Both the position numbers and the translations under genes were made by a program. Below are positions 9,331 to 44,765 of a DNA stretch of 64,000 nucleotides, in pieces. Source of the DNA: Prochlorococcus sp. AG-402-C09 (lineage in GTDB: Bacteria; Cyanobacteriota; Cyanobacteriia; PCC-6307; Cyanobiaceae); the NCBI GenBank assembly GCA_003279565.1, contig QCHN01000004.1:62001-126000 (forward strand), read 5' to 3'. The stretch's first letter is position 1. Each line of letters opens with the position of its first letter. The notes under the pieces are model-generated. The model was not told where the DNA came from. It ran no database searches and saw only the letters and a program-made list of their open reading frames with translations.

Positions 9331-9360
9331 AAAAAAACCTGCCCTAAAGCAGGTTTTTTT
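9331..9360 (-). terminator. rho-independent terminator of the Yfr2-like RNA
   Basis: AAAAAAACCTGCCCTAAAGCAGGTTTTTTT hairpin. Confidence 0.85.
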
Positions 9361-9423
9361 GAAGATCAGTCGCAAGTGTTTCCTTGTTTCCACTGCGGAG
9401 GATCTCAACTCCTCACACAATAA
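9331..9423 (-). ncRNA. yfr2-like: Yfr2-family sRNA candidate
   Basis: Minus strand GTGTGAGGAGTTGAGATCCTCCGCAGTGGAAACAAGGAAACACTTGCGACTGATCTT followed by a rho-independent terminator (ACCTGCTTTAGGGCAGGTTTTTTT); tandem GGAAACA motif; second copy at 40935. Confidence 0.75.
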
Positions 9424-10274: not shown

Positions 10275-11510
10275 TCAAGATAAAGCTTGTAATGCAATAC
10301 TAGCTACTCCTGCTGCAGGGGGCCTATTGCAAATCTTTATTGGGATACCTATTTCTTTCTCTCTGATTTTTTTCCAAGTAATATTTTTGGCACCTCCTCC
10401 AATAGTAATTATTTGCCTAGGTAGATCAGCACCTAATTCATGGAGTTTTTGCCAACCTCTGGCTTCGATTTTTGCTAATCCCTCTAATAAAGCATGAAGA
10501 TAAAGAGAATCACTTACGGGTCTTGGGCCAAGTTTAGGTTGTAAATTTGGATCATCGATAGGGAATCTCTCTCCTTTTTTTGATAATGGAATAAGATCTA
10601 TTCCTGTGGATTTGTATGGATTAATCTGCTTGCTTAATTCTTTTATATATTCCAGATTAAAAAAATCAAGTAGAATTGCACCACCTGCATTAGATGCTCC
10701 ACCAGATAGCCAATCCCCTAATACTTTATGATTTGATATACCTTTGCCAATAAGGGGTCTTTGAACAAATTTCTTAATAACTATTGTACTTCCGAGTATT
10801 GTAATCCCATCATTTTTTTTTGGGAAAGTTGCTAAAACGCCTGCATTTGAATCTGTAGTTCCTGCTATTATTTTTAGGTTTTTTGGTAAATTTAATTCAC
10901 TTGCTTTTTTATTGCATATATTCCCCATTATTTGACCTGAAGATATTATTTTTGGGAGACATTTTAACCAGTTTAAATTTTCAAATTTTTCTGGCCATGA
11001 ATTATTTTCCACCTCCCAACCCATCCTAATGTTGTTGCCTTCTTCGCCATACTCCCAATTGTTTAGAAGCCATCCACTAATCCAATCTGCTTGGTGTCTC
11101 AAGATGATTTCATTTCCATGTTCTGATAAAAGCCTTAACGCTCGCCCAACACTGCCGCTTATGCTAGAGCCAGCACAATCTTTAAAAAAGAGATTGTTAA
11201 TTTCGTTTTTATATTCTAAACAGGATAAGAAATAAGGCAAAGCCTTCCCCATAGGTACCCCATTATTTCTACATGCTAGAAGTGTTCCAGAGGTTCCTGC
11301 TATCGAGCAAGAAACTAATTTTTCTTTAAGATCTTTTGGAACTTCTTGAATTAGTTTTTTTAGGCAATATATCCAGTCTTCCCATATCTCTAGACCTGTA
11401 GAATATGGCAAAGATGATGTGTATAATATTTGTTTCTTAGTATTAATTATTGCTATTCTTAAGCCCGACGTACCAAGGTCTATGCCAAGTACAAGAGAAC
11501 TAAGTAGCAT
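10275..11510 (-). CDS. FGGY-family carbohydrate kinase
   Basis: LGIDLGTSGLRIAII... AGTTDSNAGVLATF... ITIGGGAKNITWKKIR. Confidence 0.9.
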   Translation of the reverse strand: MLLSSLVLGIDLGTSGLRIAIINTKKQILYTSSLPYSTGLEIWEDWIYCLKKLIQEVPKDLKEKLVSCSIAGTSGTLLACRNNGVPMGKALPYFLSCLEYKNEINNLFFKDCAGSSISGSVGRALRLLSEHGNEIILRHQADWISGWLLNNWEYGEEGNNIRMGWEVENNSWPEKFENLNWLKCLPKIISSGQIMGNICNKKASELNLPKNLKIIAGTTDSNAGVLATFPKKNDGITILGSTIVIKKFVQRPLIGKGISNHKVLGDWLSGGASNAGGAILLDFFNLEYIKELSKQINPYKSTGIDLIPLSKKGERFPIDDPNLQPKLGPRPVSDSLYLHALLEGLAKIEARGWQKLHELGADLPRQIITIGGGAKNITWKKIREKEIGIPIKICNRPPAAGVASIALQALS

Positions 11511-11531
11511 TGCATTTAATTTAAAGTTCTC

Positions 11532-12761
11532 TCATGCATGCTGTCTCAATTCCTTCGCTTTTTGAGACACGTCCTCCCATGGGAGAAGAATATCTGTTCT
11601 GCCAAAATGCCCATAAGCAGCAGTATTTCTATAAAAAAGTCCGCCTCTGATACTTGGTAGGTTTTGAAGATTGAATGTTTTAATAATTGCGCCTGGCCTG
11701 AGATCGAATTGATTTTGTACAAGTTTTGTTAGTTCATCGTCTGATATCTTTCCTGTACCAAATGAATCCACAAGTATTGATATAGGTTTAGCAACTCCTA
11801 TTGCATAACTTAATTGAACTTCAACTTTTTTTGCAAGATTTGCTGCAACTAATGCCTTGGCAACAAATCTTGCTGCATATGCTGCAGATCTATCAACCTT
11901 TGTAGGGTCTTTCCCTGAGAAAGCACCTCCTCCATGTCGAGCATATCCACCATAGGTGTCAACAATTATTTTTCTTCCGGTCAGGCCAGCGTCGCCTTGA
12001 GGACCTCCGATAACGAATTTCCCAGTAGGATTAACAAGGAATCGAGTTGATTCTTTAGAGGGTTTTAGAGGTAGGTCTTCAGTCGCAGGCTCAACAACAA
12101 ATTTCCATAAGTCTTTTGAAATTCTTTGCTGAATTTCTTCTTCAAGAGTTATTCCATCGACCTCTGATTTATGCTGAGTAGAAATCAATATTGTGTCAAT
12201 AGAGGAGGGTACTCCATTTTCATAAGAGACACTCACTTGGGTTTTCCCATCAGGTAAAAGATAATCAATTATTTTTTGATGCCTTACTAATGCAAGCCGC
12301 CTAGCTAACCTATGGGCAAGACTGATTGGTAATGGCATTAGCTCAGGAGTCTCGTCGCAAGCAAATCCAAACATAATTCCTTGATCTCCAGCACCCACTT
12401 GATCTAGTGGATCTGTTGAATGATCTTCTGCTTCATCTACGCCTTGAGCAATGTCCGATGATTGCTGGTCAAGTGCTACTAGGACTGCGCAACTATTCGC
12501 ATCAAATCCACCAGCACTAGAACCTTCGTATCCTATTTGCTTAATTACTTCTCTTACAAGCTTGTTGAAATCGACTTCTGCTTTGGAGGTTATTTCTCCA
12601 GTTATTAAACATAAGCCAGTATTGACAACTGCTTCACATGCAACTCTGCTTGTTGGATCTGCACTTAAGCATGCATCTAAAACTGCGTCACTAACTTGAT
12701 CACAGATTTTATCTGGATGCCCTTCAGTGACAGATTCAGATGTGAAAACGTATCTACTCAT
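11532..12761 (-). CDS. metK: S-adenosylmethionine synthase
   Basis: [54 protein letters not shown]. Confidence 0.98.
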
Positions 12762-12784
12762 TGAAAATATTAATCTTCAATATT

Positions 12785-13573
12785 TTAGTGGGTTGAATGA
12801 ATTTTTAATTCATTCAATTTTTTTATAAGAAATTTTTTTTCAGCCAGAGTGGGGGGGGTTTCCCAGCCACCAGTAAAGCCTATTACTATAGGGATATCAG
12901 CTTTTTTGGCCATTCTTAAATCAGTGTCTGCATCTGAAATAAGAGCACATTCTGAAGGATTTAGGTTCATTGTTTTGCAAAGTTCTATAACTGCTTCTGG
13001 TTTTGGTTTAGCAGGTTGATTCTCTGCACTCCAAAGACAATCAAAGATACCTTCCAATTTATTCATGAAAATAAATTCTTCAATTCCTGCTTGGGTATCA
13101 TTTGTCATTAATGCAATACGCACTCCTTTGTTTTTTAGAGAAAGTAATAGATCAAATGCTCCTGAAATTAAAGTCCTATGCTTTTGCATATTTGGTCTAT
13201 TACTGGAAAGGAAAATATCTACTTCATCAAAAAGTTCTTCACTTATTGAAAGTGATTTAAACCAATCAAAACCAAATAATGTAAATATTGTTGCTGTAGA
13301 TATAATATTTTGCTCTTTCGAAGCAATTGCTAGACTTGCATTGGGAGAAAGAACTTGGTTTTTTAATCCATAAACAGAATGAAGTAATTTTCTTAATAAA
13401 ATAATTTTAAGATTACTTATTTTTAATTTTCTAAACTTAGTAACTGCGAATTCTATTCGAGTTTTTGCTAGCTCTAATAAGCATTTTTCACTATTTGATA
13501 AAGTTCCATCCTTATCAAATATTATTGCATTAATAAAACCAACAGAGCTATTTCTTATTAATAGTTCTGCCAT
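12785..13573 (-). CDS. HAD-superfamily hydrolase (phosphoglycolate-phosphatase-like)
   Basis: IIFDKDGTLSNSE; ALMTNDT; ALISDADTDLRMAKKADI. Confidence 0.88.
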   Translation of the reverse strand: MAELLIRNSSVGFINAIIFDKDGTLSNSEKCLLELAKTRIEFAVTKFRKLKISNLKIILLRKLLHSVYGLKNQVLSPNASLAIASKEQNIISTATIFTLFGFDWFKSLSISEELFDEVDIFLSSNRPNMQKHRTLISGAFDLLLSLKNKGVRIALMTNDTQAGIEEFIFMNKLEGIFDCLWSAENQPAKPKPEAVIELCKTMNLNPSECALISDADTDLRMAKKADIPIVIGFTGGWETPPTLAEKKFLIKKLNELKIHSTH

Positions 13574-13591
13574 CTCAAAAAATGTAAATAA

Positions 13592-14701
13592 TCAAATAGT
13601 CATTACTGCAATAGGATCTTCTCCTTCTTCAGCTTGCTCAAGAAGCATTTGTTTGTATCTTGCTGCCATCTCTTCTGCCTTGTCAAAAACTTTTTGAGGG
13701 TCTGTCAGCATATCTCCTGGTTCTGGCTCAAGTGCCTTTGTGGAAAGGGAAATTCGACCTCTTTCCGCATCTAAATCTATTATCATAACTTTCATTTGGT
13801 CATTAACGTTTAATACTGAGTGAGGAGTTTCAATATGCTCATGACTTATTTCGGAGATGTGAAGAAGTCCACTTACACCTCCAATATCTATAAATGCACC
13901 ATAGGGTTTAATTCCTCTCACTGCCCCTACAACAACTTCTCCAACTTCAAGGCGATTCATTTTTCTTTCAACTAATGCCCTGCGATGACTTAAAACAAGC
14001 CTATTTCTTTCTTCATCAACTTCTAAGAATTTCAAAGGTAGGAAATCAGCAACCAACTCTTCTTTGGCTTTTCTAGTGCTTATATGTGATCCAGGAATAA
14101 AGCCTCTAAGACCTTCAACTCGAACAAGTGCTCCTCCTCTATTTGTAGCAAAAACCTCTGAGTAAATTGTGGCATCTTCTTTTTGTAATTGTCTAACTCT
14201 TTCCCAAGCTCGTTGATATTCAATTCTTCTAATTGATAAAGATAATTGACCATCTTCATTCTCTTCGGTCATTATAAAAAATTCTCTAATTTCTGAAGGC
14301 TGTAAAACATCGCTCAGTCCCTCGACTCTATTTATAGATACTTCTTGCATAGGCATAAAAGCAGCTGTTTTTGCACCAATATCAATCATTGCTCCTTTAG
14401 ATTCAAGAGCAAAAACAGTTCCATTGACTATGTCGCCAGGTTTGAAATTGTAGTCATATTTGCTTAGTAAAGATGCAAATTCATCAAGAGTGAAACCAGC
14501 ACTTTCTAGATCACTTTTATTGATTCTGCTTGAAGAGTCATCAGCAGTTGGAATATCTTTGGGGATATCCTCTTCTTTTATTTCATTAATGGAATTTTCT
14601 TCAAATTCTGCGCTGACTGCAGTTGGGGTGGTTCCTTCAGGTATTGATGTTTCTTTTTCAGGATTTTCTTCTTGAACTTTACCTGCTGGATTTTCAGACA
14701 T
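13592..14701 (-). CDS. rpsA: 30S ribosomal protein S1
   Basis: Three S1 domains: GDIVNGTVFALESKGAMIDIGAKTAAFMP, VGEVVVGAVRGIKPYGAFIDIGGVSGLLHISEIS. Confidence 0.95.
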   Translation of the reverse strand: MSENPAGKVQEENPEKETSIPEGTTPTAVSAEFEENSINEIKEEDIPKDIPTADDSSSRINKSDLESAGFTLDEFASLLSKYDYNFKPGDIVNGTVFALESKGAMIDIGAKTAAFMPMQEVSINRVEGLSDVLQPSEIREFFIMTEENEDGQLSLSIRRIEYQRAWERVRQLQKEDATIYSEVFATNRGGALVRVEGLRGFIPGSHISTRKAKEELVADFLPLKFLEVDEERNRLVLSHRRALVERKMNRLEVGEVVVGAVRGIKPYGAFIDIGGVSGLLHISEISHEHIETPHSVLNVNDQMKVMIIDLDAERGRISLSTKALEPEPGDMLTDPQKVFDKAEEMAARYKQMLLEQAEEGEDPIAVMTI

Positions 14702-14804
14702 GCTTGATTGGCGGTCTGCCTTTTTAGGACAGTGCGATAGAAATACAAAATGGCCCGCCGACCAAATTGAAATTAAATTCTACTTTATTGTTAGGTCTTT
14801 CTAG

Positions 14805-15284
14805 TTAAAGAACTGATGCCAATTGTTCTTTTTTTATTGGTTTTAGTGATTCAAGGGTTTTCATGAAATCATTTATTCCGTCAAATTGTCTATAAACCGA
14901 GGCAAATCTGATGTAAGCAACTTCATTGATATCTTTTAAATGTGTAAGAACCATTTCTCCAATCTCAATTGTTTTAATCTCTTTGCGAACTCCTTGATGG
15001 AGCTCTAGTTCTATTTCGTCGACAATAAATTCAATTTTAGATGCATTTATAAGTGTTTTTTCACATGCTCTGTTTAACCCATTGATTATTTTACTTCGAT
15101 TAAATAATTCTTTTGTCCCGCTTTTTTTTAAAACAGAAATCGGTATTGTTTCTACTCTTTCATAAGTAGTAAAGCGGAAGTCACAATTCAAGCACTCCCT
15201 TCTTCTTCTTACACTCCTTCCAGAATCAGCCGAACGAGATTCAAGAACTCGACTGTCTGTATTTTGACAAGCTGGGCACTGCAT
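14805..15284 (-). CDS. nrdR: transcriptional repressor NrdR
   Basis: [45 protein letters not shown]. Confidence 0.97.
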
Positions 15285-15429
15285 GCAGCCCTTTTAAATA
15301 ATTTAACTAACTTTAAACATTTATTTGGCTTCTGAGAAGGGGCAGATTAAATAAAAATACTTTTCTGGGAAAAAATAATTAACTTAATGATTAAAACAAT
15401 AAAACTTTTTAGTTGTAATTTAGACAATA

Positions 15430-15466
15430 AAAAAGGCCCTGAGATAGTGTCAGGGCCTTTTTTATT
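15430..15466 (-). terminator. bidirectional-type terminator of psbBT
   Basis: AAAAAAGGCCCTGAgatagtgTCAGGGCCTTTTTT hairpin. Confidence 0.9.
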
Positions 15467-15477
15467 GTGTTTTTGTT

Positions 15478-15573
15478 TTACTTGTCGTACTTTGGAGGGT
15501 CGCGAAATGCGACAGCAAAGAACAAGGTTACAAGTGCCAAAGTGAGTATTAGCACGTAGGAGAAAGCTTCCAT
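15478..15573 (-). CDS. psbT: photosystem II protein T (31 aa)
   Basis: Hand-translated: [31 protein letters not shown]; downstream of psbB. Confidence 0.95.
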
Positions 15574-39488: not shown

Positions 39489-40009
39489 TTTTTTTTTTTC
39501 TCCGAAATATGCTCAAGTCCCCGTTCCTTGGCTTGAGTCAAACTGCGGCTCATCTTTTGATGAGTTGAACGTTTTTTGTAGTTTTCACTACAAATTTATT
39601 ATAAGCAAAATTTTCTCTTCATGGAGTTCAGCTTGTTACATAGAGCTCACTGTCTTTCCTTGCTAAGGAATTTTTAGTTTTGTGTTCTTTAAAAATCTAT
39701 TCTTGCAGATCAAAAAAAATTTTTATTTTGAATCAATATTTTTAATTGAAAGTACTAAGGCACTAGATGAGGAAGTGTTCCTAAGGAAATCAACAGCATA
39801 AATTCCCTTGAGCATTCTTGCGGCTTTTAACTGAGTAATTTTTTTGTTCAAGTCTTTATCGGTTGGTTTGAGGTTCTTTTTTTTAGTCGGACTTGGCTTA
39901 ACAAGAAGATTGAAAGTAGCGAAAGACTTTCTAAATGAATAGTTGAAGTGTTGAAGCGGTTTGAATAAGATCTCGCTTAGAATTTGAATATGTTTACAAG
40001 GAATAATGT

Positions 40010-40180: not shown

Positions 40181-40784
40181 TTTTTAAAGCAAGTATTTGC
40201 CCAGAGAAGTGGGAGGGAGTTTACTTTTTTAATTTGCGTTCAGGACTTCTAAATTCAATTGAACCTTCATTCAATGGAAGCAAGTTTGATCTGATTGAAC
40301 GCAAGTAATAGAAATCTTTATGTATTTTAGGAGAAAGCATATGATTAAAAAGAAAGAGAATTTTAACGTTACACAGGGAATGAGTCTCTTGCTGCTTGAA
40401 AAACTTTCATTGCCTCCTAACCTCAGTTTTCAAATGATTCTCTATCTCACTAATCCAGTGAATAGTGTTGGGTATGAGGATTGAAAAATTGTCTAAAAAA
40501 ATTAGATAAGAAAATGGATGCCTAGTTTTAAAGATTAGAGATTCAAGTGCCAAATATTGATTACTATTCTGAATCTTGTGATGATGACCTCGTAGGTGCT
40601 GAATTGTTAGTGAAAGAATAGTTTTTGATATCTTTTTAAGGGTGTTAATTTGAATCCATAATGACTTTTTGGGAAGTTTGTAAGGAATTTGGACCTTTTT
40701 TTTAATTGTATTATCGATGCTTTACCAATCTTTAAGAGAATATTTCTGTTCCCAGCAATTTGGTACAAGATGGATTAGAAAGGA

Positions 40785-40856: not shown

Positions 40857-40934
40857 GTGACTTTATCTATGTGCCAATTCCTAAACTCTCCTGCTAAGGT
40901 GTTATTCTGAGTTCTATTCCGATAGTTTTATAAA

Positions 40935-41024
40935 GTGAGGAGTTGAGATCCTCCGCAGTGGAAACAAGGAAACACTTGCGATTGATCTTAAAAAAACCGT
41001 CATGTTAAATATGGCGGTTTTTTT
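40935..41024 (+). ncRNA. yfr2-like: Yfr2-family sRNA
   Basis: GTGAGGAGTTGAGATCCTCCGCAGTGGAAACAAGGAAACACTTGCGATTGATCTT plus terminator ACCGTCATGTTAAATATGGCGGTTTTTTT; 54/55 identical to the 9362-9416 copy. Confidence 0.75.
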
Positions 41025-41746: not shown

Positions 41747-42093
41747 ATCACTTGGATAATCAGCGAAATGCTTTGTGTTGTTCGACTGTGCTCAATTCTT
41801 TGGAATTTTATTACGTGATTGGTTTTTTTCGGCAGTCATCAACTAAGCCATACCAGACTGGATTATTCCAGGAATTGTTTAGTTCTAATTCTCAAATCTA
41901 ATAATAAAAAGCCACTTTACTGTCGTTATTGAAGAGGGCATTTTCATTGCTTGTTTATAGATTTATCATAAAAATATTTGAAATAAAATCACAGAGATCT
42001 CGTGGAAAAGATTATCACCATACCCCATTATTTTGATGACTATATTGAAGTAGGCGTTACCAAAAAAACTGGTTCTCTCAAAAAATGTCAAAA

Positions 42094-42129
42094 AAAAGTT
42101 CTTAACCAGACCGTTAAGAACTTTTACTA
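42094..42129. terminator. strong symmetric terminator-like hairpin
   Basis: AAAAAAGTTCTTAACcagaccGTTAAGAACTTTT. Confidence 0.7.
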
Positions 42130-42188
42130 GATCTTTTCAATAGATTTTGAAAAAATTGTTGATAAGGCTTGAATGGATTGAGCTCCAT

Positions 42189-42296
42189 TTAGAAAATTCC
42201 AGGAATAATTTGTCCTGTTGTTGCGTACGCACCAAATGCGGCAACGAAACCAAGCATTGCTGCCCAACCGTTAAACTTTTCTGCTTCAGGAGTCAT
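42189..42296 (-). CDS. hli: high-light-inducible (Hlip) protein, 35 aa
   Basis: Hand-translated: MTPEAEKFNGWAAMLGFVAAFGAYATTGQIIPGIF*; chlorophyll-binding-type helix and TGQIIPGIF C-terminus. Confidence 0.93.
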   Translation of the reverse strand: MTPEAEKFNGWAAMLGFVAAFGAYATTGQIIPGIF

Positions 42297-42400
42297 GGCA
42301 AAAATGAAATCTGAAGTAAATATAAAGAAGAACTAGCTGTACTGTGAGTTTTTGCTTACGGCTTTTGATTATGAGATTTGATGCTTCTTATAAGAAAAGT

Positions 42401-42682
42401 TTATTTAGTCATCGAGATGATTTGTGCCGAGTGCAATCTTTTTTCTTGCTCTTTTTTTCTGGCTAAGTGGCTATTCAGTCTGGAGGAGCTAGCGCTGCAT
42501 TTAGAGGCAAGATTCAATTCGGATTGATGTATTGCTTTTCTTTTTGCCTTTTGCTTGAGCAACCGAATATTTAATTCAGTTGAGTTTGAATGACTTGGTC
42601 TGGAAGATAGAAACAATTCAGCGTTGTGGAGTGAGGTTCTCTTGCAAAGGCTTTTTCTGATTAAAGGAAGGTGATTCATCAC
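42401..42682 (-). CDS. hypothetical protein (93 aa)
   Basis: ORF from track; basic, low similarity to known families. Confidence 0.3.
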   Translation of the reverse strand: MMNHLPLIRKSLCKRTSLHNAELFLSSRPSHSNSTELNIRLLKQKAKRKAIHQSELNLASKCSASSSRLNSHLARKKEQEKRLHSAQIISMTK

Positions 42683-42992
42683 GTTTCTCGGTAGAGGTAA
42701 CCCCGTTCCCTGTTACCTGAACATGCATTTCCCTGAGGAAATCGAACGTACTAAAAGTGTAGTGGTTGATACCGTTTTATGCGATCAAGTGAAATACTCA
42801 ATTCTGATTGCTATGAAAAAATCACCTTCTGCTTCTACGAATGGTTGCCATTTTTTAAGGTTGCATCAGGTCAGATGCATCAAGTAAAAATGGTCTAAAA
42901 ACAACAAAAGTGGACGCGAAATTGGACGTCCACTTTCAAAGATTTGTGATCCTAGTGCCTCAGATCACTTGCCCTGGTTAAGCTTCCGACGA

Positions 42993-43064
<72 letters not shown>

Positions 43065-43075
43065 TTGTGGAAAGA

Positions 43076-43157
43076 TGGGCCGGGTTGGATTTGAACCAAC
43101 GTAGGCGTAGCCAGCGGATTTACAGTCCGCCCCCATTAACCACTCGGGCACCGACCC
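43076..43157 (-). tRNA. tRNA-Tyr (GTA), copy 1
   Basis: GGGTCGGTGCCCGAGTGGTTAATGGGGGCGGACTGTAAATCCGC...GGTTCAAATCCAACCCGGCCCA. Confidence 0.96.
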
Positions 43158-43338
43158 GATTTCTTTCCACGCGGCGAAGCATCTTTGCTTGACGCTTATT
43201 GAATATATAACTGCTTCAACTGATTGCCAAATTTATTTTAGGGAGTGCTGTGATCTGTGTTTAGTCCACTTTTAAGGGGGGGTGTGATCCATTGGAAGAT
43301 ACGTTACATTTTATACAAATAGATTGAATTAAATCATT

Positions 43339-43503
43339 TTGGCCGTAAAACAAAAGGCTTCAAAAAAGGACTATTCGAAAGTCACGATTAACCTGCCTAA
43401 TAACTTGATTGACTTTGTTGATGAACTCAAAATTGAATGGGGATTGAAGAGTCGAGAAAGTGTTTTTACAAGACTCCTTGAAACGATTTCAGAAAACGAC
43501 TAA
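43339..43503 (+). CDS. ribbon-helix-helix (CopG/Arc-like) mini-protein (54 aa, TTG start)
   Basis: Hand-translated: MAVKQKASKKDYSKVTINLPNNLIDFVDELKIEWGLKSRESVFTRLLETISEND*; beta-strand KVTINLP + two helices. Confidence 0.7.
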   Translation: MAVKQKASKKDYSKVTINLPNNLIDFVDELKIEWGLKSRESVFTRLLETISEND

Positions 43504-43560
43504 GAAAAAAATAGATTTAAAAGATGTAGTCAGTCCATTTTTTAATGATTTTCATCCGAT

Positions 43561-43913
43561 TTAAAGTGAAACGAGATTAGCTATCGTCTCGTCAGAGAGC
43601 AAAATGTCTGATGGAAAGTTCCTCTAGAAGAATTCCTCCCATCCAGCTGTTGGCCAAAACTTTTAAAGGGTATTGTTCGTTAAAACCGCTGCGGTGATCT
43701 TGAAGTGGTCCTTGGATATATAGATCAATTGCTTCTCGGAAGATTTGTGGTGGTTTTAGATCAAGTTTTGCTGGCGTTTTAAGAGAACTTTCAACAGCAT
43801 TTGCCCACAGTTTTTAGCTGCCATAGAGCTAAAAGTTTTGGACGTTTGGCCTTGATATTCTTCTTCCGAATTAGTGCTTGCCAGCCACTTCTGCTTCTAC
43901 GAATGGTTGCCAT
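43561..43913 (-). pseudogene. decayed tyrosine recombinase (integrase), N-terminal arm-binding region
   Basis: Three-frame mosaic: MATIRRSRSGWQALIRKKNIK / EEEYQGQTSKTFSSMAAK / KLWANAVESSLKTPAKLDLKPPQIFREAIDLYIQGPLQ...NSWMGGILLEELSIRHFAL* / DETIANLVSL*; matches the pattern MATIRxRxxxWQAxIRxKG...SKTFxSxxxAxxWAxxVES. Confidence 0.75.
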
Positions 43914-44054
43914 TTTTTAAGGTTGCATCAGGTCAGATGCATCAAGTAAAAATGGTCTAAAAACAACAAAAGTGGACGCGAAATTGGACGTCCACTTTCA
44001 AAGATTTGTGATCCTAGTGCCTCAGATCACTTGCCCTGGTTAAGCTTCCGACGA

Positions 44055-44126
<72 letters not shown>

Positions 44127-44137
44127 TTGTGGAAAGA

Positions 44138-44219
44138 TGGGCCGGGTTGGATTTGAACCAACGTAGGCGTAGCCAGCGGATTTACAGTCCGCCCCCATTA
44201 ACCACTCGGGCACCGACCC
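44138..44219 (-). tRNA. tRNA-Tyr (GTA), copy 2
   Basis: Identical to 43076-43157. Confidence 0.96.
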
Positions 44220-44318
44220 GATCCACTTAATGAGATTAACAGTAAACGGTGCCACTTTTCTCGAATTTGTTGGTCCTTTGAGGTTGGAATCGATACGATC
44301 ATTAAAGATGTTTGATTT

Positions 44319-44765
44319 GTGATGAATATGGATCTTTTATTCATTAATGGACCGAATTTGAATCTTGTTGGAAAACGGGAGCCAACTATATATGGCTCAC
44401 AAACGTTAGAGGATATTCAAGAAGAGCTATTGACTTTAGCGAGTGAGCTTGACGCCAAGCTTGAATTTTTTCAGAGTAATTCAGAAGGCGAGATGATTGA
44501 TTGCATTCAAAATAGTGCTGGTTCTATTGACGGAATATTAATTAATGCAGGTGCTTATACACATACATCCATAGCTCTTAGAGATGCTTTATTGGGAGTT
44601 GCTATCCCTTATGTGGAAGTTCATTTAAGTAACATTTATTCTAGGGAAGAATTTCGCCATAAATCATTTCTTTCAGACAAAGCATTGGGTTTGGTTTGCG
44701 GCTTTGGAGCAAATAGTTATCAACTGGCCTTGCAAGGAATAGTTTCTCATTTAAAGATAGTTTAA
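44319..44765 (+). CDS. aroQ: 3-dehydroquinate dehydratase, type II
   Basis: [28 protein letters not shown]...[16 protein letters not shown]. Confidence 0.97.

Follow-up and report, generated by a model that had tools for sequence, protein, structure and literature searches.

A broken reading on the minus strand beside the tRNA-Thr(GGU)/tRNA-Tyr(GUA) genes of Prochlorococcus sp. AG-402-C09 raises the question of what once occupied this locus and what has become of it. We examined a window of 64,000 nucleotides, the whole stretch of DNA analysed, which covers positions 62001-126000 of contig C4 in a 34-contig draft genome (1.63 Mb, 88.7% complete). An earlier note on this DNA had read the N-terminus of an integrase across several frames at 43561-43913 and interpreted it as the scar of a dead element. 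An ORF check bore out that no intact ORF covers the stretch, and the frame-joined reading matches the open integrase ORFs of two related genomes, G006 (92%, E 1e-60) and G036 (89%, E 2e-60); at the DNA level, several relatives share 82-95% identity with 43584-43887. Compared with the intact copies, the fragment carries a 1-bp deletion near codon 18 and another near codon 33, and a TGG>TGA change places a stop at about codon 108. The ATG lies at 43913 and the 3′ end of tRNA-Thr at 44055, in agreement with the spacing of about 140 bp given before. The proposed span holds in part: 43584-43913 is integrase, whereas 43561-43583 is not. Its last piece (DETIANLVSL), reached by a further frameshift, is not homologous, as the frame continues with a stop and RDD opposite WRDE and homology then ends; this join was dropped after alignment to the intact copies.

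What remains on the minus strand at 43584-43913 is the N-terminal third of the integrase, about 110 of 326 codons. Homology to the G006 integrase ends past about codon 110, and the tyrosine recombinase catalytic domain is gone, as had been claimed: the intact copies extend to 326 aa, and homology in the window stops near 43584. Because a Pfam search with the joined fragment gave no match and a PHROGs search returned a weak one (phrog_22184, E 5e-4), proof of its identity rests on the intact orthologues.

The locus comparison suggested earlier recovered such 326-aa orthologues at the tRNA-Thr/aroQ site of G006, of G036 (AG-311-J23) and of three more distant picocyanobacteria (L077, L078, L080). 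The intact protein matches Phage_integrase (PF00589, E 3e-26) and the integrase family phrog_1 (E 3e-54), and R197, H282xxR285, H308 and Y317 are invariant in four intact copies, so that these relatives possess the catalytic residues that lie beyond the third kept in the window. Phage integrases match it over 96-98% of its length at about 28-30% identity, and a search of viral contigs with the intact integrase found no relative; most of the named records that carry this integrase are single-cell genomes of Prochlorococcus. When an intact copy was sought in the window's own genome, the sole Phage_integrase match was an unrelated 387-aa integrase-like gene on another contig, of a kind that most genomes of the genus encode at about this length. 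The element copy in the window cannot be active by its own integrase.

The related elements measure about 4-9 kb, and cargo differs between intact elements at the same site. G036 carries an imelysin and a di-haem oxidoreductase, and L077 an alpha-amylase/sucrose-phosphorylase-like operon (10623-15516), which looks like a compatible-solute operon of the glucosylglycerate type, with a sucrose-phosphorylase-like enzyme, a glycosyltransferase, a phosphatase and a kinase. Cargo that varies between copies, a trait of tycheposons (which may carry nutrient-acquisition genes), was found in the relatives only.

The fragment in the window lies between two direct repeats of 335 bp, identical to each other and 1062 bp apart (42826-43160 and 43888-44222). 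Each comprises the first 8 integrase codons, an arm (about 140 bp) and the two tRNA genes, all on the minus strand: tRNA-Thr(GGU) at 42993-43064 and tRNA-Tyr(GUA) at 43076-43157 in the distal copy, which holds the attachment site, and at 44055-44126 and 44138-44219 in the proximal, aroQ-side copy. The integrase fragment, itself adjoining a tRNA gene, is thus enclosed by direct tRNA repeats. The identity runs to natural limits, namely a deletion on one side and the passage from element to aroQ sequence on the other. Taken with the same-site orthologues bearing PF00589 and the empty sites in sister genomes, the duplicated tRNA pair around the fragment supports reading this stretch as the decayed gene of a tyrosine recombinase next to a tRNA, and as what a dead element has left behind. 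The earlier account recognized this scar and missed the second tRNA pair (42993-43157 besides 44055-44219), as well as the left end, the tandem remnant and the small gene described below.

Since both repeats contain the integrase start, the window holds two element remnants in tandem, which we call A and B. To the left of the first repeat, 42029-42833 is 87-90% identical to DNA in the same-site islands of G014, G017, G009 and G025 and represents a cargo remnant that includes a 35-aa hli-like ORF (42189-42296, minus strand). It is joined to the first 8 integrase codons (42826-42851, minus strand) at an 8-bp microhomology, CTTCTGCT, present on both sides of the junction. From this cargo match and join it follows that the first repeat ends element A, its integrase cut to 8 codons, and that element B comes next. 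A search to the left of element A for a third tRNA-Thr 3′ remnant, the mark of its outer attachment site, found none. A segment at 40484-40551 resembles the arm region (70% similarity, E 0.014) and was left as a possible chance match.

In G006, G036 and G014 the order from left to right is tRNA pair, left end, cargo, integrase, arm, tRNA pair and aroQ. The last, of the 3-dehydroquinate dehydratase type (44319-44765, plus strand), is the conserved chromosomal flank and was found in 35 of the 41 genomes of the genus. In the window, 43161-43521 aligns with the far ends of the elements in G006 (90% identity) and G036 (93%), about 7 kb away from the integrases there. As this segment is the left end of element B, the window copy has lost its cargo and two-thirds of its integrase between about 43522 and 43584. 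An alignment of 11 left ends delimits a conserved block (43241-43257) and an arm motif (43264-43272); the block occurs in 8 of the 41 genomes, at most once in each and always beside a tRNA copy. Comparison of empty, occupied and decayed sites gives an anatomy of native terminator, tRNA, left end (with promoter-like site, arm motif and a ribbon-helix-helix gene), cargo and integrase, followed by the element terminator with its arm motifs, tRNA and aroQ.

In G036, G014 and G007 the distal copies have a left flank resembling the one at empty sites, and on the aroQ side the copies retain the native right flank. In L077, L078 and L080 the intact integrase lies at the aroQ-adjacent tRNA-Thr and the distal copy is tRNA-Thr alone, as it is in G027 and G029. 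Distal copies of this kind place the attachment site, at gene-level resolution, in tRNA-Thr. Traces of the integrase were found at the aroQ-side site in 13 sister genomes (tblastn), in the window and in G001 (DNA match); within the genus, it is fully open at this site in G006 and G036 alone. Empty sites, with neither integrase nor arm and with the native flank kept, were found in G002-G005, G008, G013, G023 and G030, two of which, G002 and G005, carry short remnants of other events. These are 3′ pieces of tRNA-Thr lying upstream, 23 bp in G002 and 22 bp in G005, the latter with another type of integrase about 0.4 kb away; in G037 a piece of 57 bp lies about 0.15 kb from a third. At least three types of integrase seem to have used the tRNA-Thr site.

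Several further observations concern these islands. Other integrases of 426 and 451 aa lie by short tRNA-Thr 3′ remnants (L102 2917-4646 and 14004-14648; L103 2379-3942), and the G005 island also contains a small serine recombinase. Isolated C-terminal remnants of the integrase, away from its N-terminus in same-site islands (L064 510-620; L039 7326-7421), point to nested or composite elements. Distal tRNA-Thr copies have drifted in two genomes (L043 4448-4519; L044 4611-4688), where ARAGORN assigns the anticodon CGU in G027 and tRNA-Leu(GAG) in G007. A Glutamine-II riboswitch and two Cyano-1 RNAs were located in the window at 39512-39574 (minus), 40929-40993 (plus) and 9358-9422 (minus), and the RNA at 40929 falls within the flank that is conserved to the left of the island.

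Occupied and empty sites also differ in the hairpin that follows tRNA-Thr. At empty sites a native hairpin with a T-run (AAGAGACC..GGTCTCTT type) lies no more than about 60 nt downstream of the gene, and one of this type also follows the distal tRNA-Thr in G036 and G014. In genomes with the integrase or its remnants, the aroQ-side copies have a AAAGTGGAC..GTCCACTTT hairpin with a T-rich tail at about +50 (13 of the 14 folded, the exception being G029, where the scan chose another hairpin), and it is present even in G001, G015 and G017, where the integrase is a stub. Both window repeats contain this element-borne, terminator-like hairpin with its AAAGTGGAC arm motifs (42905-42938 and 43967-44000, minus strand). 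Such a swap is what integration at the 3′ end of a tRNA would do, and may be why the arm outlives the integrase gene. Five copies of the motif AAAGTGGAC are present in the window, always at element ends, against a mean of 0.45 in shuffled sequences, none of 100 of which reached five. That the left end has it as well is in keeping with integrase arm sites and makes it a putative arm-binding motif, and its paired form is confined in this genome to the two repeats. GTGATCTG likewise recurs at both element ends and is not significant alone. A promoter-like site (TTGGCA-17-TATATT, 43202-43230, minus strand) faces the distal tRNA pair; it was found by consensus match, and shuffled sequences yield as many such matches.

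The stretch is very probably a dead tRNA-targeting, cargo-carrying integrative element, present as A and B in tandem and decayed in both. In its living relatives a 326-aa tyrosine recombinase is encoded beside tRNA-Thr(GGU), with the element seated in that gene. Integration would leave the aroQ-side tRNA pair with the promoter of the chromosome and the terminator of the element, and the distal tRNA copy with the left end of the element upstream and the native terminator downstream. Element A lost its integrase down to 8 codons by deletion at the 8-bp microhomology. From element B the cargo has gone, as have the two-thirds of the integrase that held the catalytic domain, and two frameshifts and a stop have been gained. 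Integrase homology and its breaks, the duplicated tRNAs, both element ends, the three states of the site and the exchange of terminators can be read from the aligned sequences; the integrase presumably catalyses a crossover within tRNA-Thr, and the distal tRNAs are probably transcribed.

Apart from the integrase fragment, the sole gene that remains of element B in the window encodes a 54-aa ribbon-helix-helix-like (RHH) protein with a TTG start (43339-43503, plus strand). Over seven genomes it shows a mean dN of 0.018 and a mean dS of 0.276 (dN/dS about 0.06) and is under purifying selection; the window protein is identical to the G006 copy at a dS of 0.25. It resembles the N-terminal domain of a protein of roughly 350 aa that is widespread in the family, and the same genome encodes elsewhere a 345-aa protein whose N-terminus it resembles. 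AlphaFold, run without an alignment, predicted two helices at low confidence (pLDDT 73, pTM 0.47), and a search of viral contigs with the protein found no relative. Lying next to the left attachment site, the gene may encode a directionality factor or a regulator.

These features raise the question of partial domestication, in which the host has come to use the element terminator and the RHH gene, and selection preserves them. Consistent with it are the hairpin, which holds its position some 50 nt past tRNA-Thr at almost every decayed site, stubs included, and the constraint across seven RHH copies, several of which have no working integrase beside them. However, much of the RHH divergence may date from when the elements were alive, and among the 11 left ends aligned the gene was not recovered in G014, G007 or the distant genomes, so that we regard domestication as a serious possibility and no firmer than that. 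We think it unlikely that the elements carry a complete tRNA-Tyr and tRNA-Thr operon with promoter and terminator of their own, such that integration duplicates working, essential tRNA genes and swaps the terminator, and dead copies are kept as the host uses the terminator and the RHH regulator.

How the dead element came to stand in tandem is a separate matter. A recent tandem duplication via the tRNA repeats would explain why the 335-bp repeats are identical, and so would two integrations followed by gene conversion; one of these presumably brought it about. Two independent integrations, equalised later by gene conversion, would account for the different parts that A and B now keep (cargo in one, RHH gene and integrase in the other), and such accretion does occur: in G006 a much older integrase N-terminal remnant (residues 4-53, 48% identity) lies left of the distal pair. 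Against it, the 160 bp of arm and integrase start contain no mismatch between the repeats, although elements differ there by several per cent across genomes, and accretion appears rather doubtful. It is very improbable that the arrangement is an artefact of assembly or whole-genome amplification. The 34-contig state of the draft, the single-cell origin of the named relatives and the 8-bp microhomology at the left junction could raise that suspicion, and, should the DNA derive from an amplified single cell, an amplification chimera at the 42826 junction is conceivable; yet other assemblies show the same layout, among them the single-contig G006 and G007, and in G017 an integrase stub lies by the same cargo with a different junction. 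Least probable, and largely refuted, is an ordinary chromosomal tandem duplication of the tRNAs unrelated to any element, with the integrase fragment inserted separately between them: identical repeats are what a recent duplication would leave, but the same duplication surrounds full elements in G006, G036 and G014, the repeats hold element-specific arm and integrase-start sequence, and sites without the integrase have one tRNA pair.

The preferred reading, a dead tRNA-targeting integrative element, has evident counterparts. Hackl et al. reportedly described in 2023 the tycheposons of Prochlorococcus. These are summarised in two papers (PMC10872708, PMC10654061), with a size quoted as 4-200 kb (PMC10872708). 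The present elements share with them a tyrosine recombinase next to a tRNA, cargo that varies, the remodelling of islands at tRNA genes and a picocyanobacterial host, and at about 4-9 kb the relatives fall within or near that range (PMC10872708). They differ in that a dead copy, reduced to about 1 kb, is what the window has, and in that a whole tRNA-Thr/tRNA-Tyr pair is duplicated in the lineage studied; the element behaves like a tycheposon and is a candidate member of that family. Classical tRNA-integrating islands and phages have their attachment site in the 3′ end of a tRNA gene and usually duplicate only that 3′ part. Attachment within a tRNA, an adjoining integrase and direct repeats at both ends are common to them and to this element, whereas a whole tRNA gene or pair is repeated here in place of 3′ remnants such as those of 22-57 bp in G002, G005 and G037. 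A picocyanobacterial integrase family at tRNA-Phe/tRNA-Cys (cluster158946), kept apart from tycheposon integrases, is likewise tied to specific tRNAs and variable islands in Prochlorococcus and Synechococcus (PMC10187409). It targets other tRNAs and is invisible to PHROGs models (PMC10187409), unlike the tRNA-Thr integrase (phrog_1, E 3e-54), which does not look like a member of that family.

We file the element as a known kind, a tRNA-targeting integrative element, dead in this genome. One tRNA-Thr site shows every stage among sister genomes, from empty to full element, decaying, reduced to a stub and in tandem, and how cargo elements live and die in streamlined cyanobacteria of the ocean can be read there base by base. 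Such elements can leave behind duplicated tRNA genes that later diverge, as in G027 (CGU) and G007 (tRNA-Leu).
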